From Ancylobacter polymorphus (GTDB lineage Bacteria; Pseudomonadota; Alphaproteobacteria; Rhizobiales; Xanthobacteraceae), in NCBI RefSeq assembly GCF_030813495.1, contig NZ_JAUSUI010000002.1, positions 372,001 through 436,000 on the forward strand: DNA of 64,000 nucleotides. The letters are read 5' to 3'. Under the pieces are notes generated by a model. That model had not been told where the DNA came from. It ran no database searches and was given only the letters and a program-made list of their open reading frames with translations. Position 1 is the first letter of the stretch; the number at the start of each line of letters is the position of its first letter. Both the position numbers and the translations under genes were made by a program. This document shows positions 52,114 through 64,000 of the stretch, piece by piece.

Positions 52114-55100
52114 TCAGGCCGCCGCATGAGGGGCGGCCGGCTTGCCCCGCATCCGTTCCAGCACCGTGAAGAAGGCGGGGACGAACAGCACGGCGAGCCC
52201 GGTGGAGGCGAGCATGCCGCTGACCACGGCAATGCCGAGCGACACGCGCGCGCCGGCGCCCGCCCCGGAGGCGAAGGCCAGCGGCAGCATGCCGAAGATG
52301 AAGGCGAAGGAGGTCATCAGGATCGGCCGGAAACGCAGGCGGGACGCCTCGACGGCGGCTTGCGCGATGTCCATCCCTTCCATGCGTTTCTCGCGCGCGT
52401 ATTCCACGATGAGAATGGCGTTCTTGGCCGCCAGCGCGATGAGCAGCACGATGCCGATCTGCGTGTAGAGGTCGTTCGGCAGGCCGGTGATCTCCAGCGC
52501 CGCCACCGTGCCGAGCAGGGTGAGCGGCACGGCGAGGATGACCGCCAGCGGCTGCAACCAGCTTTCATATTGGCCGGACAGCACGAAATAGACCAGCACC
52601 AGTGCCACGGCGAAAACGAAGTAGATCTGGTTGCCGACGAGGCGTTCCTGATAGGACATGCCGGTCCATGCCGCCCCCATGGAGGCAGGCAGCGCATAGG
52701 CGGCGACCTGATCCATCAGGCTCATCGCCTCGCCGGAGGAGAAGCCGGTGGCCGGGCTGCCGGTCACCTGCGCCGCCGGGTAGAGGTTGTAGAGGGTGAT
52801 CAGCGGCGGGCCGGCATCGTCGACGAAATGGGCGACCTGGCCGAGCGGCACCATCTCGCCCCCTGCGCCCTTCACTTTGAGATTCAGTATGTCGGCCGGC
52901 TGCAGGCGGAACGGCGCGTCCGCCTGCACATAGACCTGGAACACCATGTTGAAGCGGGTGAACTGGTTCACATAGGACGAGCCGACATAGGCTTCGAGCG
53001 CCGAGAACACCTGGCCGACCGTCAAACCGTAGGTTTCGGCCTTCACACGGTCCACGTCCAGTCGCAGCTGCTTGACCGCGCCGCGGAAATTCGTGCCGAC
53101 ATGGGACAGGGCGGTTTGGGTGCCGGCGGCGTCAACCACGTCATTGGCGGCGTTCTGCAGGGCGGTGAAGTCCGAGGTGCCGTCCTTCATCTCCACCATC
53201 AGGGTGAAGCCAGAGGAATTGCCGATTCCCTGGATGGGAGGCGGCATCATCACCATGACCTCGGCGGTGCCGAGATTGTCGAGCGCCGCGCGGACCCTGG
53301 CGCCGATGCCGGCGGCGCTGAGCGCGTTGGTCGTGCGCTCGCTCCAGTCCTTTAGCACCACATAGAGCATGCCGGTGCTGTAGAGCGTGGCGTTATTGTC
53401 GAGCGGGGAAATGCCGGAGACGCCGATTACGCTGTCTATGCCATCGAGCGAGCGGATCTTCTCGACCGCGGTGGCCACCACCGCCTCGGTGCGGGCAGCG
53501 GAGGCGGAGTCCGGCAGGTTCAGGCTGACGATGAAATAGCCCTGGTCCTCGCTCGGCAGGAAGGCGGTCGGCACCTGCGTCAGCCCATAGAAGGCAAGCC
53601 CGATGAGGCCGAGCCCGACGAGGCTGGTGAGCAACGCGCCGCGCACCAGCCGCCGCACGAGAGCGACATAGACCGCCTCGGCGCGGTCATAGACGGTGTT
53701 GAAAGCGCGGTAGACCACATTGCGCTGCGCCGGCGGCGTCGAGGGGCGCAGCCACAGCGCGCATTGGGTCGGCTTCAGAGTCATGGCGTTAACCGCCGAA
53801 ATCAGCGCCGTGGCGGCGATGACCAGCGCGAATTGCTGGTACATCTTGCCGGTCAGACCGGACATCATCGCCGCCGGCAGGAACACCGCCATCAGCACCA
53901 GCGTGATGCCGATGATCGGGCCGGTCAGTTCCGACATCGCCTTGATCGCGGCGTCGCGGCTGGAGAGCCCCGCCTCCATGTGGCGCGACACGCCCTCGAC
54001 GATGACGATGGCGTCGTCCACCACGATGCCGATCGCCAGGACGAGGGCGAACAGGCTGGTGGTGTTGACGGTGTAGCCGAGCAGATACATGGCGGCGAAG
54101 GCGCCGACGATGGTCACCGGCACGGTGGTCGCGGGCACCAGCATCGCCCGCCAGTCCTGCAGGAAGATGAGGATGACGGCGAGCACCAGCAGCGCGGCGA
54201 TGACCAGCGTCTCGTACACCTCGTCGACCGAGGCGGTGACGAATTTCGTGCTGTCGAAGGAGACCTTGTAGTCGAGCCCCTGCGGGAAAGCGGCGGCCAG
54301 CTCCTTCATCTTCGCGTTCACCTCCTCCGCGACGGTGAGGGCGTTGGCGCCGGTGAGCTGCGAAATGGCGATGGCGGCGGAAGGCTTGCCGTCCAGCGTC
54401 GCGGTGTGACCATAGGTGGCGGCGCCAAGTTCGACGCGGCCGACATCGCCGATGCGTACCAGCCGCCCGCCGCCCTCATCCGCGGCCTTGACGACGATGC
54501 GCTCGAAATCCGCCGCCTCGCTGAAACGGCCGGTGACATTGATGACGTACTGGAAATTCACCGAGGCCGGCGTGGGCGGTGCCGCGACCATGCCGGCCGT
54601 GACCTGCGTGCTCTGCTGCTGGATGGCGGTGGAAACATCCGCCGGCGTCAGGCCGTAGGTCTGAAGGCGCTCGGGATCGAGCCAGATCCGCATCGCGTAG
54701 CTGCCGGAGCCGAGCACGGTGACGGAGCCGACGCCCGGCAGCCGCGCCAGTTCGTTCTCAAGGCTGATGGCGGCGTAGTTGGCGAGGAACAGATTGTCGT
54801 AGCGCCCGTCCTGGGAATAGAGATTCACGAATTGCAGGATCGAGGTCGACTTCTTCTGGACGTTGAGCCCCTGCGTCGACACCGCGCTCGGCAGCTGCGC
54901 CGTGGCGAGCGACACCCGGTTCTGCACCAGCACCTGCGCCATGTCAGGATCGGTGCCGATGTCGAAGGTGATGACCAGCGAATAGGAGCCGTCATTGCCG
55001 CTGGTCGACTGCATGTAGATCATGCCCTCGACGCCGTTGACCTGCTGCTCGATCGGCAGCGCCACCGTGTCCATCACCGTGCGCGCGCTGGCGCCGGGAT

Positions 55101-55248
55101 AGGTGGCCGTGACCGAGACGGTCGGCGGCACCACATCGGGATATTGCGAGATCGGCAGGCTGGTGAGCGCCAGCGCGCCGAGGAGCACGATCAGCAGGGC
55201 CAGGGTGTTGGAGAGCACCGGCCGTTCGATGAAGAAGCGCGAGAGCAT
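52114..55248 (-). CDS. RND efflux pump inner-membrane transporter, HAE1 (AcrB/MexB) type
   Basis: 1044 aa, the normal length. N-terminus FFIERPVLSNTLALLIVLLG, porter region LPISQYPDVVPPTVSVTATY and GASARTVMDTVALPIEQQVN, proton-relay TM4 segment LVLAIGIVVDDAIVIVEGVS with the paired Asp residues, and C-terminal AAKNAILIVEYAREKRMEGM. Proton-driven export of hydrophobic drugs, solvents or metabolites. The adaptor gene lies 24 bp upstream; no outer-membrane channel or TetR gene is in the window. Confidence 0.95.
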   Translation of the reverse strand: MLSRFFIERPVLSNTLALLIVLLGALALTSLPISQYPDVVPPTVSVTATYPGASARTVMDTVALPIEQQVNGVEGMIYMQSTSGNDGSYSLVITFDIGTDPDMAQVLVQNRVSLATAQLPSAVSTQGLNVQKKSTSILQFVNLYSQDGRYDNLFLANYAAISLENELARLPGVGSVTVLGSGSYAMRIWLDPERLQTYGLTPADVSTAIQQQSTQVTAGMVAAPPTPASVNFQYVINVTGRFSEAADFERIVVKAADEGGGRLVRIGDVGRVELGAATYGHTATLDGKPSAAIAISQLTGANALTVAEEVNAKMKELAAAFPQGLDYKVSFDSTKFVTASVDEVYETLVIAALLVLAVILIFLQDWRAMLVPATTVPVTIVGAFAAMYLLGYTVNTTSLFALVLAIGIVVDDAIVIVEGVSRHMEAGLSSRDAAIKAMSELTGPIIGITLVLMAVFLPAAMMSGLTGKMYQQFALVIAATALISAVNAMTLKPTQCALWLRPSTPPAQRNVVYRAFNTVYDRAEAVYVALVRRLVRGALLTSLVGLGLIGLAFYGLTQVPTAFLPSEDQGYFIVSLNLPDSASAARTEAVVATAVEKIRSLDGIDSVIGVSGISPLDNNATLYSTGMLYVVLKDWSERTTNALSAAGIGARVRAALDNLGTAEVMVMMPPPIQGIGNSSGFTLMVEMKDGTSDFTALQNAANDVVDAAGTQTALSHVGTNFRGAVKQLRLDVDRVKAETYGLTVGQVFSALEAYVGSSYVNQFTRFNMVFQVYVQADAPFRLQPADILNLKVKGAGGEMVPLGQVAHFVDDAGPPLITLYNLYPAAQVTGSPATGFSSGEAMSLMDQVAAYALPASMGAAWTGMSYQERLVGNQIYFVFAVALVLVYFVLSGQYESWLQPLAVILAVPLTLLGTVAALEITGLPNDLYTQIGIVLLIALAAKNAILIVEYAREKRMEGMDIAQAAVEASRLRFRPILMTSFAFIFGMLPLAFASGAGAGARVSLGIAVVSGMLASTGLAVLFVPAFFTVLERMRGKPAAPHAAA

Positions 55249-55272
55249 GGGGCCGCCTCGGAACTGCCGGTG

Positions 55273-56499
55273 TCAGGGAGACGGGGTGCCGCCTGCGGAG
55301 GTGGACGCGGCGTCGGCCTTGGGCAGCGCCGCCATGGTGCCGGCTACGGGATCGACGCTTTTGCCCGCCACGGCCCGCTGCAGCGAGCCGATGACCACCT
55401 TGTCGCCGGCGTTCAATCCCTTGGTGACGACGCGCAGCTGCCCCTCGACCGGGCCTGTGGTGACGGAGCGCTGCTCCACCACATTGTCGGCGCCGACCAC
55501 CATCACATAGCTTCCGGTCTGGTTGGACTGCACCGCCGTGTCATCCACCAGAAGCGCGCTGTCGATCTTGCCGATCGCCACCCGCACCCGCACGAACTGG
55601 CCCGGTATCAGCTCCACTTTTGAATTTGGCAGCGCCGCCCGCATCTGCAGCGTTCCGGTGGCGCCGTCGAGCTGCGGGGCCATGTAGTCGATCACACCCG
55701 CGTAATCATAGCTCGCCGCACCGGGCAGCCCGATCTCGACCGGCGGCTGGATCTTGCTCTCGCGGACATCGCGCAGGCTTTTGCCCTGCGCCGCCAGCGC
55801 ATCGCGCATGGCGATCTGCTGCTGCTCGCTCATGTTGAAATAGACATGCAGCGGGTCGACGCGCAGGATCGTCGCGAGCCGGGTGGGGCCGGAGGAGCCG
55901 ACCAGTGTGCCGACATCGGCGAGATGGCGGGTCACCACCCCGTCGAAGGGCGCGCGCAGTGTGGTGTAGCTCAGCGTCAGCCGGGCGAGGGCGAGGCTGG
56001 CTTCGTCCGCCGCCACCTGTCCCTTGGCGGCGTCGAGCGCGGCGCGCGCGTCGTCGACGCTGCGCTGGCTCGACACCTGCTTTGCGCCGAGATCGGACTG
56101 GCGGTCGAATTCGGTCTGCGCATTGGCCGCCTTGGCCTGGGCGATGGTAAGCTCGGCTTCCTGCAGCGCCACCTGGTCGCGGTACTGGTCCGGCTCGATC
56201 TCGAACACGATGCGGTCCTTGCGCACCGCCTCGCCATCGGCATAGCCGATGGTTTTCAGATAGCCCTCGACGCGGGCGTCGAGATTGACCTCCTGCGAGG
56301 GAGCGGTCTTGCCGGTGAATTCGGCGTAGAGCGTCACCGGCGCGACCGTGGGCGACGCCACCGTCACCTTTGCCAGCGGGGGGACGGCGAAGGTGTTCGG
56401 CTCGTTGCAGCCTGCCAGCAGCAGCGCCGCGCCAAAGGTGCAGGTCAGCATCCCCGTCCGGGTCCAGCCCGTGATTGAATGACCATCGCTTGCAGGCAT
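55273..56499 (-). CDS. RND efflux periplasmic adaptor lipoprotein (MFP, AcrA-like)
   Basis: 408 aa. Lipobox LLLAGC places the lipidated Cys at 31. ATG at 56499 is supported by AAGGAG 9 bp upstream; an internal ATG at 56451 would shorten the signal. Domains: lipoyl/hairpin (VNLDARVEGYLKTIGYADGE, TLSYTTLRAPFDGVVTRHLA), beta-barrel, membrane-proximal region. Links the transporter to an outer-membrane channel encoded elsewhere. Confidence 0.93.
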   Translation of the reverse strand: MPASDGHSITGWTRTGMLTCTFGAALLLAGCNEPNTFAVPPLAKVTVASPTVAPVTLYAEFTGKTAPSQEVNLDARVEGYLKTIGYADGEAVRKDRIVFEIEPDQYRDQVALQEAELTIAQAKAANAQTEFDRQSDLGAKQVSSQRSVDDARAALDAAKGQVAADEASLALARLTLSYTTLRAPFDGVVTRHLADVGTLVGSSGPTRLATILRVDPLHVYFNMSEQQQIAMRDALAAQGKSLRDVRESKIQPPVEIGLPGAASYDYAGVIDYMAPQLDGATGTLQMRAALPNSKVELIPGQFVRVRVAIGKIDSALLVDDTAVQSNQTGSYVMVVGADNVVEQRSVTTGPVEGQLRVVTKGLNAGDKVVIGSLQRAVAGKSVDPVAGTMAALPKADAASTSAGGTPSP

Positions 56500-56893
56500 G
56501 CCGCCACACTCCTTCCACGGCCCTGCCACGCAAGGTCTGCATCCGCGCCGGGCGGAGGACTATGGATTCCTGTCGCGACAATACCAAGATACCGAGTTTC
56601 ACGTATGGCGCTCTCAGGCATCGGCGCCCGTCCGCCGCGACAGCAGGACCGCCACCGGCATTGGCATGAGGCTTGGGCCGTTGACTCATGGAGCGAGGCC
56701 GCTCCTTCCCGACATTGCCGGTCGTCTTGTGCTCACAGTCCCTGCCGCAAGGTCGCAACGGAGTGATGCAACAGCACCTGACCCACCGGGAGAAACGTCA
56801 CTCTCAATGGCGCGTGCGCTGATCTAGGATATAACTACATAAATATGTCTTTATGTCTGTTGACGCAGCAGGCTCCTGCCTGCATCTTGGTCC
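56500..56893. other. Intergenic region upstream of the efflux operon and the metE riboswitch
   Basis: Divergent promoter region of about 390 bp. No convincing gene. The stretch 56822-56870 is AT-richer (TATAACTACATAAATATG and TTTATGTCTGTTGACGC) and is the probable promoter of the riboswitch transcript. A similar ATGTC...GTTGACGC string precedes the second riboswitch near 63921-63940. Confidence 0.5.
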
Positions 56894-57082
56894 CTGTCAT
56901 GGTTCTGCGGCGTCGCTTGCGTCGCAGCTAAGAGGGAAGCCGGTGAGCCTTTGGCGAGGCCGGCGCTGCCCCCGCAACTGTAAGCGGCGAGCCTGTCGTC
57001 CAATCAGCGTCACTGAAGCGCAAGCTTCGGGAAGGCCGGACGAAAAGGCGGCGACCCGCGAGCCAGGAGACCTGCCCTGACA
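56894..57082 (+). promoter_or_regulatory. Cobalamin (adenosylcobalamin) riboswitch upstream of metE
   Basis: All diagnostic segments are in order: GAGGGAAGCCGGTGAGCC, the CCCCCGCAACTGTAAGCGG core, GTCACTGAAGC with GGGAAGGCCGGACGAAAAGG, and the B12 box GCCAGGAGACCTGCC at 57062-57076. Binding of B12 should lower expression of the B12-independent methionine synthase downstream. The boundaries are approximate to about 10 nt. Confidence 0.95.
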
Positions 57083-57205
57083 ACATAATCGTCCCTGGGC
57101 GGGGTGTCCCGGTGGTGCGTTCGCGCGTCCGCCGGTGCCTTGCACCCGTGGCAGCGCCTCGCGTCCGCTCGGCCTTTGCCCCCAATCCTGATTGGGGTTA
57201 GCCGA
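57083..57205 (+). repeat. Riboswitch expression platform, leader copy 1 (metE)
   Basis: Leader between aptamer and start codon, near-duplicate of the minus-strand leader at 63623-63745. It ends with the hairpin CCCCAAT-CCTG-ATTGGGG (57180-57197), 8 bp before the ATG. ATTGGGG includes the only G-rich stretch that could act as a ribosome-binding site, so the hairpin can hide it; this suggests translational control. Confidence 0.7.
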
Positions 57206-59569
57206 ATGAACTTCCCTTATTCCGCCGGCACGGTGCCGGTTTCCACCCTTGGCACGCCGCGCATCGGTCCGCGCCGCGAACTCAAGAGCGCGCTTGAGAC
57301 CTACTGGGCCGGCAAGAGCGATGCGCCGGCATTGCTGGAGGCGGCCGCGCGCCTGCGCGCCGCAAATTGGGCCCGGCAGAAGTCGCTGGGCGTCAGCAAC
57401 ATCCCGTCCAACGATTTTTCGCTCTACGACCACGTGCTCGACACGGCGGTGATGGTGGGGGCGATCCCGCCCGCCTATGGCTGGTCCGGCGGGCCGGTGC
57501 CGCTCGACATCTATTTCGCCATGGCGCGCGGCAGTCAGAGCGCGGAGACGACGTGCGCGCATGGCCACGCGCATCCGCATGGCAGCGGCGTTCCAGCGCT
57601 TGAGATGACCAAATGGTTCGACACCAATTATCACTATATGGTGCCGGAATTCTCGCCGGGGCAGCGCTTCTCGCTCACCTCCACCAAGCCGATGGACGAG
57701 TACCGCGAGGCCAAGGCGCTGGGCTATGAGACGCGCCCCGTGCTGCTCGGCCCCGTGACCTTTCTCAAGCTCGGCAAGGCGACAGAGCCGGGGCTCGACC
57801 CGCTCAGCCTGCTCGGCGATCTGCTCCCGGTCTATGTCGAGGTGCTGCGCCGGCTCTCCGCCCATGGCGCGGAATGGGTGCAGATCGACGAGCCCTGCCT
57901 CGTCACCGATCTCGACGAGGCGGCCCGTGCGGCGCTCCGCGAGGCATATGGCTTTTTCGCCCATGCGCTGCCGAAGCTGAAGATCATGCTCACGGCCTAT
58001 TTCGGCCGGCTGGGCGACACTCTCGACACGGCGCTGGCGTTGCCCGTCGCCGGGCTGCATCTCGACCTGGTGCGGGCCCCCGAGCAATTGCGCGAGGTGG
58101 CGGACAAGGCGCGGGCGGGGCTCGTGCTCTCGCTCGGCGTCATTGACGGGCGCAATGTCTGGCGCGCCAATCTGCCTGGCCTGCTCGACACGCTCGAACC
58201 TTTCGTGCGCAAGCGCGGTACGGATCATGTCGAGATCGCGCCCTCATGCTCGCTGCTGCACGTGCCGATCGACCTTGAACAGGAGACCGGCCTCGATCCT
58301 GATGTGAAGAGCTGGCTCGCCTTTGCCGTGCAGAAGATGGACGAGCTGGTCACGCTCGGCACCGCGCTGGCCGGCGGCCGCGAGGTGGTGCTGGGCAAGC
58401 TGATGGAATCCGGCGCGGCGGCCGAGGCCCGCAGAGTGTCGCCCAAGGTGCATGATGGGCGGGTTGCCGCCCGGCTCGCCGCCGTCACGCCTGATATGAC
58501 CCGGCGGTCGCGCCCCTTCGCCGCCCGCGCCGAGCTTCAGCGGGGCCGCCTGCGCCTCCCGCTGTTTCCGACCACCACGATCGGCTCCTTCCCGCAGACG
58601 CCGGAGGTGCGCAAGGCGCGCGCCGCCCTTGGCAAGGGTGAACTCAGCGATGCCGGCTATGACGCCTTCCTGAAGGAGGAGACGGCCCGCACCCTTCGCT
58701 GGCAGGAGGAGATCGGGCTCGATGTGCTCGTACATGGCGAGTTCGAGCGCAACGACATGGTGCAGTATTTCGGCGAGCAGCTTTGCGGCTTTGCCTTCAC
58801 CCGGCATGGCTGGGTGCAGAGCTACGGCTCGCGCTATGTCCGCCCGCCGATCCTGTTCGGCGACGTGGCGCGGCCCGCGCCGATGACGGTCGAGTGGTGG
58901 CGCTTTGCGCAAAGCTGCACCGACAAGCCGGTGAAGGGCATGCTGACCGGCCCGGTGACGATCCTCAACTGGTCCTTCGTGCGCGACGACCTGCCCCGCA
59001 GCACGGTGAGCCGGCAAATCGCCCTCGCCATCCGCGACGAGGTGACCGACCTCGAAGCGGCCGGTGCGAAAATGATCCAGATCGACGAGGCGGCGATCCG
59101 CGAGGGCCTACCGCTGCGCCGCGCCGATTGGGATGCCTATCTCGACTGGGCGGTGGCGAGCTTCCGGCTGTGCGCCTCCGGGGTGCGGGACGAGACGCAG
59201 ATCCACACCCATATGTGCTATTCGGAGTTCAACGACATCATCGCCGCCATCGCCGCCATGGATGCCGACGTGATCTCCATCGAGACATCGCGCTCGAAGA
59301 TGGAACTGCTCGACGCCTTCGTCGACTATCGCTACCCCAACGAGATCGGGCCGGGGGTCTACGACATCCACTCGCCGCGCGTGCCGGCGGTCGAGGAGAT
59401 GGTCGAGCTCCTGGAGCGGGCGACGCAGCGGCTCGCCGCGGCGCAGATCTGGGTCAATCCCGATTGCGGTCTGAAGACGCGGCAATGGGCTGAGGTGCGT
59501 CCGGCGCTCATCAACATGGTGGCGGCGGCGCACCGCCTGCGCGGTCATCTCGCGCGGGCGGCGGAATGA
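57206..59569 (+). CDS. metE: Cobalamin-independent methionine synthase
   Basis: 787 aa, full length. Transfers the methyl group of methyltetrahydropteroyl-triglutamate to homocysteine. The C-terminal catalytic barrel begins FPTTTIGSFPQT. Zinc ligands appear in HTHMCYSEF (His, Cys), a Glu in VISIETSRSKME, and Cys in WVNPDCGLKTR. Start ATG at 57206 (M-N-F-P-Y); frames from 57104 only translate the leader. The internal CAHGHAHPHGSG loop near residue 120 is His-rich and unusual. Controlled by the riboswitch just upstream. Confidence 0.96.
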   Translation: MNFPYSAGTVPVSTLGTPRIGPRRELKSALETYWAGKSDAPALLEAAARLRAANWARQKSLGVSNIPSNDFSLYDHVLDTAVMVGAIPPAYGWSGGPVPLDIYFAMARGSQSAETTCAHGHAHPHGSGVPALEMTKWFDTNYHYMVPEFSPGQRFSLTSTKPMDEYREAKALGYETRPVLLGPVTFLKLGKATEPGLDPLSLLGDLLPVYVEVLRRLSAHGAEWVQIDEPCLVTDLDEAARAALREAYGFFAHALPKLKIMLTAYFGRLGDTLDTALALPVAGLHLDLVRAPEQLREVADKARAGLVLSLGVIDGRNVWRANLPGLLDTLEPFVRKRGTDHVEIAPSCSLLHVPIDLEQETGLDPDVKSWLAFAVQKMDELVTLGTALAGGREVVLGKLMESGAAAEARRVSPKVHDGRVAARLAAVTPDMTRRSRPFAARAELQRGRLRLPLFPTTTIGSFPQTPEVRKARAALGKGELSDAGYDAFLKEETARTLRWQEEIGLDVLVHGEFERNDMVQYFGEQLCGFAFTRHGWVQSYGSRYVRPPILFGDVARPAPMTVEWWRFAQSCTDKPVKGMLTGPVTILNWSFVRDDLPRSTVSRQIALAIRDEVTDLEAAGAKMIQIDEAAIREGLPLRRADWDAYLDWAVASFRLCASGVRDETQIHTHMCYSEFNDIIAAIAAMDADVISIETSRSKMELLDAFVDYRYPNEIGPGVYDIHSPRVPAVEEMVELLERATQRLAAAQIWVNPDCGLKTRQWAEVRPALINMVAAAHRLRGHLARAAE

Positions 59570-59575
59570 TCCTTG

Positions 59576-59601
59576 GGGCCGCCGCCTCGGGGCGGCGGCC
59601 C
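59576..59601. terminator. Bidirectional terminator between metE and nrdB
   Basis: Perfect 11-bp arms GGGCCGCCGCC / GGCGGCGGCCC with TCGG loop, in the 40-bp gap between two convergent genes. Followed by TTCTCTCGT on the plus strand. Confidence 0.8.
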
Positions 59602-59609
59602 TTCTCTCG

Positions 59610-60725
59610 TCAATCCCAGGTCAGCGCGCCGCCGTTCTGGTATTCAATGACGCGTGTCTCGAAGAAGTTCTTTTCCTTCTTGAGATCCATCGCCTCGCTC
59701 ATCCACGGGAACGGGTTGTCCGCCTCGGCGAAGACAGATGCGAGCCCGAGCTGGGCGCAGCGGCGGTTGGCGATGAAGTGCATGTATTGCTCGCACAGGC
59801 CGGCGTTCAGCCCGAGAAAGCCGCGCGGCATGGTGTCCCGGCCATAGGCGGCTTCCAGTTCCGCCGCGTCCTTCAGCATGGAGCGCACCTCGTCCTGGAA
59901 GGCGGGCGTCCAGAGGTGCGGGTTTTCGTGTCTGATCTGGTTGATCACGTCGATGCCGAAATTGAGGTGAATGCTCTCGTCGCGCAGGATGTACTGGTAC
60001 TGCTCGGCGATGCCGACCATCTTGTTGCGCCGGCCGAGCGAGAGGATCTGCGCGAAGCCGGTGTAGAACCACATGCCCTCGAACACGACATAGAAGGCGA
60101 CGAGATCGCGCAGGAACTGCTGGTCGGCCTCGGGCGTGCCGGTCTGGAACGCGGGGTCATCGAGACGTTGCGTATGCTTCAGCGCCCAGGCGGCCTTGTC
60201 GGTGATCGAGGGCACCTCGCGGTACATGTTGAACAGCTCGCCCTCATCGAGACCGAGACTCTCCACGATGTACTGGAAGGTGTGGGTGTGCACCGCCTCT
60301 TCGAAAGCCTGACGCAGCAGATATTGCCGGCATTCCGGGTTGGTGAGGTGGCGGTAGATGGCGAGCACGATATTGTTCGCCACCAGCGATTCCGCGGCGG
60401 CGAAGAAGCCGAGATTGCGCTTCAGCATGCGCCGCTCGTCCTCGGTGAGGCCATCGCGCGACTTCCACAGCGCGATGTCGGCCTGCATGGAGACTTCGGT
60501 CGGCATCCAGTGATTGTTGCAGCCGGAGAGGTACTTCTCCCATGCCCATTTGTACTTGAGCGGCAGGAGCTGGTTCACGTCGGCGCGGGCATTGATCATC
60601 CGCTTCTCATCCACCGTGACCCGGGCGGCGCCGCGCGCGATGGCGCCGAGACCGGTGGCGTCGCTGGCGGGCGGCGCGAAGGCGGGGTGAAGCGGGGCAG
60701 GCTTTGTGTCGGACCAGTCGAGCAT
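59610..60725 (-). CDS. nrdB: Class I ribonucleotide reductase beta subunit, class Ic-like (Phe at radical site)
   Basis: 371 aa. Di-metal ligands by alignment: E112 ([12 protein letters not shown]), E143 and H146 ([10 protein letters not shown]), E216 (VVFEGMWF), E250 and H253 ([10 protein letters not shown]). The residue four after His146, Tyr122 in E. coli, is Phe150, and the first ligand is Glu instead of Asp; both are features of class Ic (Mn/Fe) enzymes such as Chlamydia NrdB. The C-terminal tail keeps a Tyr (IEYQNGG). ATG at 60725 has AAGGAG 8 bp upstream; a GTG at 60752 overlapping the nrdA stop is a weaker option. Supplies the oxidant for NrdA. Confidence 0.93.
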
Positions 60726-60748
60726 GTGCGTGTCTCCTTCTTCGCTGC

Positions 60749-63622
60749 TCACTGGCAGGCTTCACAGTCGGGATCGTCGAGGACGCAGGCCTTGCCGAAC
60801 TCGCTCTCCGGCACGCTGATCGGCGCGGCGGAAACAACGGCAGAGACCGCGTTGAGCTTGCCGTCTGTGCCCTTCAGCGTCGATTTCTCGACATGGGTGG
60901 CCGAGCGCGAGCGCAGATAATAGGTCGTCTTCAAGCCGCGCTTCCACGCGAGGCGATAGGTTTCGTCGAGCTTGCGGCCGGAAGGATTGGCGACGTAGAG
61001 GTTCAATGACTGAGCCTGATCGATCCATTTCTGCCGGCGCGCCGCCGCCTCGATCAGCCATGAAGCGTCGATCTCGAAGGCGGTGGCGTAGAGCGCCTTG
61101 AGATCGTCCGGGATGCGGTCGATCTGGCCGACGCTGCCATCGTAATATTTGAGGTCGGAGACCATCACCTCATCCCAGAGGCCGCGGCTTTTCAGGTCGC
61201 GGACAAGGAACGCGTTCACCACGGTGAAGTCGCCGGACATGTTCGATTTCACGAACAGGTTCTGGTAGGCCGGTTCGATCGACTGCGACACGCCGCAAAT
61301 GTTGGAAATGGTCGCGGTGGGTGCGATCGCCATGGTGTTGGAGTGGCGCATGCCGATCGTCGTCACCCGCGCGCGAAGCCCCTCCCAATCGAGTGTCGTC
61401 GAGCGGTCGAGGTCGAGCCCGCCGCGCCCCTCGGCCAGCAATTCGATGCTGTCGATCGGCAGGATGCCCTTCGACCACAGCGAGCCCTCGAAGGAGGGAT
61501 AGCGCCCCCGCTCGGCGGCGAGATCCACCGAGGCGGAGATGGTGTGGAAGCTGATCGCCTCCATGCTCTCATCGGCAAAACGGATGGCCGCATCCGAGCC
61601 ATAAGGAAGACGCAGCGCGTGCAGCGCATCCTGAAAGCCCATGATGCCGAGACCGACCGGACGGTGGCGCAGGTTCGAGCGACGCGCTTCCGGGATGGTG
61701 TAGAAATTGATGTCGATGACGTTGTCGAGCATGCGAAGCGCCGTCTTCACGGTGCGGGCGAGGCGCTGATGGTCGAGGCCGTCCGGCGTGACATGCGCGA
61801 GCAGATTCACCGAACCGAGATTGCACACGGCGACCTCGTCGGCGCTCGTGTTCAGCGTGATCTCGGTGCACAGGTTCGAGGAGTGCACCACGCCGACATG
61901 GCTCTGCGGCGAGCGGATGTTGCAGGGATCCTTGAAGGTGACCCAGGGGTGGCCGGTCTCGAACAGCAGGGTCAGCATGCGCCGCCACAGATCGACGGCG
62001 CGCAGTTGCTTGAAGACCTTCAACTCTCCGCGCGCAGCCTTTGCCTCATAGCCCTCATACGCCGTCTTGAAGGCCGGACCGTACAGATCGTGTAGATCGG
62101 GCGTCTCGTCGGGGGAGAACAGCGTCCACGGGCCGTCTTGCTCGATGCGCTGCATGAACAGGTCCGGCACCCAGTTGGCCGTGTTCATGTCATGGGTGCG
62201 ACGGCGGTCGTCGCCGGTGTTCTTGCGCAGGTCGAGGAATTCCTCGATGTCGATGTGCCAGGTCTCGAGATAGGCGCAGACCGCCCCCTTGCGCTTGCCG
62301 CCCTGATTGACCGCGATGGCGGTGTCGTTGGCGACTTTCAGGAACGGCACCACGCCCTGGCTCTCGCCATTGGTGCCCCTGATATGGGCCCCCAAGCCCC
62401 GCACGCGGGTCCAGTCATTGCCAAGGCCGCCGGAGTATTTGGCGAGCAGCGCGTTGTCCTTGATCGCCTTGAAGATGCCGTCGAGGTCGTCGGCGACCGT
62501 GGTGAGGAAGCAGGAGGCAAGCTGCGCGCGCGGCGTGCCGGAATTGAACAGGGTCGGCGTCGAGGCCATGAAGTCGAAGGACGACAGCAGCCGGTAGAAC
62601 TCGATCGCCCGCGCCTCGCGGTCGACCTCGCGGAGCGCCAGCCCCATGGCGACACGCATGAAGAAGGCCTGCGGCAGCTCGAAGCGCGTGCCGCGCGCGT
62701 GCAGGAAATAGCGGTCGTAGAGCGTTTGCAGGCCGAGATAGTCGAATTGCAGGTCGCGCTCGGGCAGCAGGGCTTCCGCGATCCGCTCGATATCGAACCG
62801 CGCGAGTTCGGGATCGATCCGTTCTTCGTCGATGCCGCGGGCGAGATAGGCACGGAAATAGTCGCCATAGCGCTCGGCCATCTCCGCCTGCGTCGCCTGA
62901 TCGGGACGGCCGGCGAGGAAGCTCAGCGCCTCGCGGCGCAGCCTGTCGAGCAGCAGCCGGGCCGACACCCTGGCGTAGTTCGGCTCGCGCTCGATCAGGG
63001 TACGCGCGGCGAGGATGGGTGCGAGCCCCAGCTCGTCCACGCTGATGCCGTCATAGAGATTGCGGCGCGTCTCGGCGAGGATGGCATCGCTTGAGACATC
63101 GGCGAGCCCGGCGGTGGCTTCGCCGATGACGGCGGCGAGCCGTACCTCGTCGAGCGGCACCAGCGCCCCGCTCGCCAGGCGCAGGCGCAATTCGCCCGTA
63201 ACCGGTGGCGCCGTCGCGCCGACTCTGGCAGCCGCCCGCTCACGGGCGCGCTCCTCGCGGTACAGCACATAGGCGCGGGCGACCTTGTGATGTTCGCCGC
63301 GCATCAGGGCGAGTTCCACCTGGTCCTGTACGTCCTCGATGTGGAAGGTGCGGCCGGCATCGGCGCGACGGGTGAGTCCGGCGACGATCTGCGCGGTGAG
63401 GTCCGCGACGATGGCGTGCACACGACGCGAGGCCGCAGCGGACGACCCCTCGACGGCGAGAAAGGCCTTGGTGAGGGCGAGCGCTATTTTCGCGGGATCG
63501 AAGGGCGTCACCGCGCCATTGCGGCGGATCAGCTGATAGCCCGGCGTGCTGGCCGGGTCCGCCCCGGCCGAGCGGGGAAGAGGCGGTTCGGCGACCGGCG
63601 CGACAGGATGAAGGAGAGACAT
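60749..63622 (-). CDS. nrdA: Class I ribonucleotide reductase alpha subunit with two ATP-cone domains
   Basis: 957 aa, longer than E. coli NrdA (761). Reduces ribonucleotides for DNA synthesis. The N-terminus has an ATP-cone ([20 protein letters not shown]) and a second cone-like domain ([20 protein letters not shown] ... [20 protein letters not shown]), for overall activity control. Active-site elements: SCFLTT (redox Cys), [12 protein letters not shown] (Asn, Cys, Glu), [18 protein letters not shown]. The C-terminal CEAC shuttle thiols are present. ATG at 63622. Preceded by a cobalamin riboswitch leader; 23 bp before nrdB. Confidence 0.95.
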
Positions 63623-63745
63623 CGGCAAACCCCAATCAGCATTGGGGGCAAAGGCCGAGCGACGCATCGGCGGGCACGACGGCACGAGGAGCCGACGGAC
63701 GCGCGAACGCACCACCGGGACACCCCGCCCAGGGACGATTATGTT
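63623..63745 (-). repeat. Riboswitch expression platform, leader copy 2 (nrdA)
   Basis: Inverted, near-identical copy of the metE leader at 57083-57205. On the minus strand about 50 nt beginning CAACATAATCGTCCCTGGGC are the same in both. It ends with a hairpin CCCCAAT-GCTG-ATTGGGG (63630-63647), 7 bp before the nrdA ATG. Confidence 0.75.
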
Positions 63746-63920
63746 GCGACGGCAGGTCTCCTGGCTCGCGGGTCACCGCCTTTCGTCCGGCCTTCCCGGA
63801 ACTCTCGTTCCAGTGACGCTGAATGGACGACAGGCTCGCCGCTTACAGTTGCGGGGGCAGCGCCGGTCTTGCACCGGCTTCCCTCTTAGCCTCTGAGCCA
63901 ACCCGACTCAGAGGACCGAA
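63746..63920 (-). promoter_or_regulatory. Cobalamin riboswitch upstream of nrdA-nrdB
   Basis: Minus-strand B12 box AGCCAGGAGACCTGCC (63751-63766) and the CCCCCGCAACTGTAAGCGG core (around 63838-63856), preceded by AAGAGGGAAGCCGGTGC. A CCTCTGAG / CTCAGAGG stem (63890-63897, 63907-63914) closes the 5' side. B12 should repress the B12-independent reductase, presumably in favour of a B12-dependent class II enzyme (NrdJ) elsewhere in the genome. The 80 bp to the window edge contain no gene. Confidence 0.94.
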
Positions 63921-64000
63921 GCGTCAACATATAGACATCGACGCCCGAACTTGGTCAACATATGGTTAAGGTGCCGTGTTTCGATTTAGGCGGGATGGGT

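Follow-up and report, generated by a model that had tools for sequence, protein, structure and literature searches.

Two facing cobalamin riboswitches around a metE/nrdAB island in Ancylobacter polymorphus: a probable translational switch and possible gene conversion between leaders

The question raised by this locus is whether two cobalamin riboswitches that face each other across the genes for two different enzymes are simply neighbors, or whether they evolve together. Scanning the whole window (the 64,000-nucleotide stretch of A. polymorphus DNA analyzed here; its genome is G000 below) with cmscan gave exactly two Rfam matches above the gathering score, both of them full-length matches to the cobalamin riboswitch family RF00174 (gathering score 31.5 bits; table). 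A first-pass annotation made from the sequence alone had proposed such a facing pair around metE and nrdAB, and the covariance model bears it out, although the span given there (56894-63920) leaves out the outermost 11-15 bp of the two aptamers. Its view of the genes as B12-independent isozymes also holds, MetE and the class I NrdA and NrdB all exceeding curated cut-offs; against the class II (NrdJ) model TIGR02504, NrdA scores 378.0 bits, under the cut-off of 399.95. The metE and nrdAB genes are convergent, the stop codons of metE and nrdB being separated by 40 bp, and each transcription unit (metE; nrdAB) has a full-length aptamer 5' of it. Translation of nrdB may begin at a later start codon. 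RND-type efflux genes flank the island on both sides (window 52114-56529; L255 2978-6175), the right-hand one exceeding the NF000282 cut-off, and a tRNA-Ser (gga) lies 479 bp past the nrdA aptamer (L255 414-503; G000:C2:436414-436503).

Table. Features of the metE/nrdAB island and its leaders, in window coordinates.
Feature	Position	Strand	Basis
metE cobalamin riboswitch aptamer	56883-57093	+	RF00174, 123.3 bits, E 1.7e-30, model 1-189
Candidate P13/L13 of metE leader, GGGCGGGGTGTCCC	57097-57110	+	GCGGGG complementary to L5 CCCCGC
Predicted hairpin over metE Shine-Dalgarno	57169-57205	+	fold; stem covaries among leaders
metE, cobalamin-independent methionine synthase, 787 aa	57206-59569	+	NF003556 1139.8 bits, TIGR01371 1104.4 bits, both above cut-off
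nrdB, class I ribonucleotide reductase beta subunit	59610-60752	-	NF005550 679.4 bits, above cut-off
nrdA, class I ribonucleotide reductase alpha subunit	60749-63622	-	NF005544 1687.9 bits, above cut-off
Predicted hairpin over nrdA Shine-Dalgarno	63622-63658	-	fold; stem covaries among leaders
Candidate P13/L13 of nrdA leader, GGGCGGGGTGTCCC	63717-63730	-	motif search; same folding caveat as metE
nrdAB cobalamin riboswitch aptamer	63734-63935	-	RF00174, 139.1 bits, E 5.4e-35, model 1-189

Control of this kind implies B12-dependent counterparts, MetH and a class II NrdJ, elsewhere in the genome, as the first-pass annotation had pointed out; a genome search found both over cut-off, metH at G000:C4:353488-357042 (1766.2 bits) and nrdJ at G000:C12:126264-128639 (565.1 bits), with no cobalamin riboswitch in the stretches around them (L257, L258). 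RF00174 has five matches in the whole genome. One outside the island sits amid cobalamin genes, with CobW and CobN downstream, CobU and a corrinoid adenosyltransferase on its other side, and CbiB nearby; another precedes an ABC substrate-binding protein whose family matches are below cut-off; the remaining one precedes a membrane protein without an NCBIfam match, and this riboswitch match (G000:C11:7330-7562; L005/L260) extends over the start of that protein's reading frame as annotated here. From the B12-synthesis genes found, rather than from the whole pathway, we infer that the bacterium can make cobalamin. The gene content supports a role for MetE and NrdAB as backup isozymes that would be expected to be off when cobalamin is plentiful.

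How widespread is the arrangement? In a draw of 119 genomes from the family (orthologue threshold E < 1e-150), nrdA is found in 26 and metE in 23 (2 partial). When an upstream riboswitch is counted if on the same strand and within 800 nt of the gene, RF00174 precedes every one of the 26 nrdA genes and 21 of the 23 metE genes, the exceptions being G007 (cut by the contig start) and G014 (none present). NrdJ is over cut-off in all 26 nrdA genomes and in 105 of the 119. Both metE and nrdA occur in 18 of these genomes, with a spacing below 10 kb in 11. Of these 11 pairs, eight are divergent with less than 1.7 kb between the genes, one is divergent at 6.6 kb, one has both genes on the same strand 3.7 kb apart, and one, that of the window genome, is convergent. 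In a draw of 30 genomes from the genus, nrdA is present in 16 and metE in nine, all nine among the 16, and all 25 genes have the riboswitch (16/16 nrdA, 9/9 metE). Because MetH and NrdJ are over cut-off in all 30, the B12-dependent enzymes appear to be the constant part of the repertoire, and the island a backup that some members have. The convergent layout is seen in 1/18 genomes of the family draw and 4/9 of the genus draw (the window genome being in both), the other genus members being G141, G125 and G131, with gaps of 2.0-4.0 kb. Riboswitch-controlled nrdAB beside metE had been flagged as notable in an alphaproteobacterium; the combination is present but is not peculiar to this genome, given the 26/26 nrdA leaders and the 11/18 pairs within 10 kb, and it is the convergent layout that is the rarer feature.

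Some peculiarities of other genus members were seen in passing. In six of the 30 (G127, G119, G022, G131, G123, G136) the MetH match falls in two adjacent pieces (profile approximately 2-340 and 335-1182), pointing to a split gene. G022 also has two back-to-back cobalamin riboswitches 60 bp apart (L262; G022:C9:389350-389557, minus strand, and 389617-389830, plus strand), which lie between cobN and a gene for a CbtA-type cobalt transporter, and a close pair resembling it is found in G062:C17.

The structure of the leaders bears on how they might act. GGGCGGGG lies downstream of the aptamer in all 68 leaders compared, and the L5 motif CTGCC..GCAAC, complementary to it, is present in 66. In minimum-energy folds of both window leaders the P13 stem is not formed as drawn and the L13 stretch pairs otherwise; a kissing role for L5 and L13 would rest on this complementarity and on the known behavior of the family (PMC9600662). 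The G-run of the Shine-Dalgarno sequence, adjacent to the start codon, has a C-run farther upstream as its pairing partner in the leaders compared; where the stem departs from CCCC/GGGG, the change is compensated (CCCT/AGGG, CTCC/GGAG, CCCG/CGGG, CAGACCC/GGGTCTG). After removal of near-duplicates, 45 of the 68 leaders remain, and their mean stem score for this hairpin is 7.25; 40 shuffled sets give 6.01 (sd 0.20, maximum 6.49). Five leaders have no GGGG: they reach 6.90 when scored with their own 5' part, and 5.33 when that part is taken from GGGG leaders (200 combinations). No Sigma-70-like promoters were found. With a hairpin at the ribosome-binding site that shows compensatory changes, and no terminator-like site found in either window leader by a terminator scan, the leaders look translational. 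A strong G+C-rich hairpin does close each leader, as might be expected if the riboswitches acted by transcription termination rather than by masking the ribosome-binding site, but it overlaps the Shine-Dalgarno sequence and adjoins the start codon, and its G-run is followed by just two T, so that we regard termination as quite unlikely; Rho-dependent effects may nevertheless occur in these leaders.

In a translational switch of this kind, cobalamin binding would lead the aptamer to hold L13 through the L5-L13 kissing contact; with L13 held, the anti-Shine-Dalgarno CCCC would pair with the GGGG Shine-Dalgarno by the start codon and translation would stop. Without ligand, the L13 G-run could compete for the CCCC run, freeing the Shine-Dalgarno sequence. 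We infer the switch itself, its ligand and its direction of control.

An alignment of 329 columns gives 82% identity between the two window leaders. Is this more than would be expected of two members of one riboswitch family? For each of 27 genomes (one per species), the metE leader was compared with the nrdA leader, and the result set against all cross-gene, cross-genome pairs. In the half of the aptamer after L5, within-genome identity is 0.91 in G000, 0.92 in G141, 0.93 in G125, 0.94 in G131 and 0.87 in the convergent Methylocella island described below, compared with a mean of 0.69 in the 22 other genomes (one-sided Mann-Whitney p 0.0007, or 0.0018 with four near-duplicates dropped, for arrangement classes set after seeing the data, with relatedness partly controlled and four of the five convergent genomes from one genus). 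The platform also shows an excess (p 0.0096; 0.019 with near-duplicates dropped), being homogenised in three of the five convergent genomes and not in G125 or G131, and the 5' part shows none, remaining gene-specific (p 0.72). Within the genus, excess identity is found in 4/4 convergent and 1/5 other genomes (Fisher p 0.040). Two pairs are as homogenised without the convergent layout: those of G136 (0.93), a sister of convergent G131 in which the genes are on different contigs, and of G006 (0.91), in which they are in tandem. In the window genome, where four of the five riboswitches were compared, the aptamer halves of metE and nrdA have an identity of 0.91, as against 0.59-0.70 in comparisons involving the cobW-side or ABC-transporter-side riboswitch. 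We read the 3' halves of the facing riboswitches as evolving in concert, putatively through recurrent gene conversion.

A second line of evidence comes from the nrdA leaders of seven genus members (G000, G137, G141, G143, G132, G084 and G130; the group was named after the leader tree was seen), in which a 5' part like that of other nrdA leaders is joined to a platform like that of metE leaders. At columns diagnostic of genus metE as against the other nrdA type, all seven are nrdA-like at 4/4 in the 5' part and metE-like at 13/13 in the platform; beyond the start codon both kinds of base occur, with nrdA-like ones in the majority. Trees of the 5' part split leaders by gene (support 96/96 for 21 genus leaders, 89/93 for the 61/68 set and 94/95 for the 71/74 set), and trees of the 3' part join the seven nrdA platforms to genus metE (100/99, 99/95 and 100/99, respectively, the last with Methylocella metE inside). 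Conflicting segment trees with gene-specific sequence outside the tract, the pattern taken to mark conversion, are thus found, with AU tests of a plain gene split in the 3' part varying by set (p 0.235, 0.0055 and 0.058 in the same order). In the NrdA protein tree the seven carriers do not form a clade, since four of them have as their sister G120, whose leader is of the other type (96/96); constraining the seven as a clade is not rejected (p 0.092). G120 has both nrdAB flanks in common with mosaic carriers G132 and G143, so that the leader appears to have changed in place. Five of the seven carriers lack metE. We favor the metE leader as the probable donor because the trees place the seven nrdA platforms beside or within the metE group, and the mosaic nrdA leader of the window lineage seems best explained by gene conversion from a metE leader.

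Could the two leaders instead be independent orthologous riboswitches, alike within a genome through shared constraint and ancestry, with no exchange? Aptamer cores are highly conserved everywhere, an AU test on whole leaders does not reject the plain nrdA/metE split (p 0.43), and in a first set the metE leader was nearer to another metE leader than to the nrdA leader of its own genome in 16 of 17 genomes. The reference pairs, however, are under the same constraint, and yet convergent pairs rank 1-3 of 73 for the 3' aptamer half; moreover, the bases common to a pair lie in variable loops specific to each species, and the excess does not extend to the 5' part. Independence of the leaders therefore seems unlikely to us.

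Another reading is that metE is a newcomer captured behind a duplicated local nrdA leader. This was suggested by a first tree with few genus members, which joined the window metE leader to the nrdA leaders of the window and G084 (98/98), and by the lack of metE in four other genus members of the family draw. It was dropped once genus members joined the leader trees: eight metE leaders then form their own clade (100/98), with a branching similar to that of the MetE proteins, the seven nrdA platforms are placed beside or within that clade, and no metE leader has an nrdA-type 5' part in any 5' tree. We consider capture very improbable.

The island is also found outside the family. Two Methylocella tundrae plasmid records match 98% of it in one collinear piece at 75.9% identity, and the plasmid examined (L263, NZ_LR536452.1) has the convergent island with both riboswitches, surrounded by plasmid genes such as those of an integrase, a transposase and a toxin-antitoxin pair. 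An unusual GGTGGTTCGC stretch occurs in the platforms of both leaders there, as would be expected had the Methylocella pair been homogenised independently of the genus. A Phyllobacterium plasmid and an Aureimonas plasmid have nrdAB with the riboswitch, with metE not adjacent. In a survey of 80 named metE loci, whose flanks are often short, a close NrdA neighbor (79%) is found only at L009, a Xanthobacter MAG in which the two genes are in tandem with a riboswitch before each; at L057 there is an NrdA at 66%, approximately 5 kb from metE. In a synteny comparison, the flanks of genus members share almost nothing with those of G000. Three scenarios for the island were considered and rejected. Transfer between the genus and Methylocella is at odds with the protein trees (Methylocella NrdA groups outside the genus, and its MetE with G044, G096 and G065); a tRNA-borne island is at odds with the differing neighboring tRNAs (tRNA-Ser in G000, tRNA-Arg in G141, tRNA-Met in G138), which offer no common site; and the clean gene split of the 5' parts argues against inversion of the island through its two riboswitches by a fixed crossover.

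Taken together, we consider it likely that this is a B12-independence island under two cobalamin riboswitches that act as translational switches, and whose facing 3' halves have been homogenised by gene conversion. A more tentative extension, to which we would give somewhat less than an even chance, is that inverted riboswitch pairs repair each other by gene conversion around a mobile island, keeping matched B12 thresholds for unrelated genes, and that seven species have a metE-derived nrdA platform, five of them having lost metE. Riboswitches are commonly followed through evolution as leaders that remain attached to one gene; exchange of 3' halves without the 5' parts or the coding genes would, if true, show how a regulon keeps its switches alike. 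The convergent and other genomes form a natural set for asking whether matched thresholds matter, and the island itself is a compact, partly plasmid-borne unit that would give B12-dependent bacteria a backup for methionine and deoxyribonucleotide synthesis.

How does this compare with known systems? Streptomyces nrdABS is reportedly under B12 riboswitch control. In the Streptomyces-type operon a third gene, nrdS, follows nrdAB; it is absent in the window, where the stop codon of nrdB is instead next to that of metE. Titles and the beginnings of abstracts in the open-access literature (most subscription journals being outside this scope) gave no account of paired metE/nrdAB riboswitches in alphaproteobacteria, or of riboswitch-riboswitch conversion. 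Isozymes of B12-dependent enzymes under cobalamin riboswitches are known (PMC3766115), and the window follows the same logic as metE and Streptomyces nrdABS, but it has both isozymes adjacent, convergent and each with its own switch, in an alphaproteobacterium, and with putative exchange between the switches. The metE gene of Priestia megaterium has a SAM-cobalamin tandem riboswitch, which PMC9600662 describes as off with corrinoids usable by MetH; the window genes, in contrast, carry one aptamer each, and cmscan gave no SAM riboswitch at gathering score in the 64 kb. Compared with RF00174 members having the L5-L13 kissing loop described in the same paper, the window leaders are alike in the full-length aptamer, the L5 motif and the complementary G-rich motif downstream, and differ in the predicted anti-Shine-Dalgarno hairpin approximately 60 nt past the candidate L13, with which the putative switch would operate. 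Riboswitch control of the isozymes is thus known; what appears to be new is the paired, partly mobile island and the apparent exchange between its switches.
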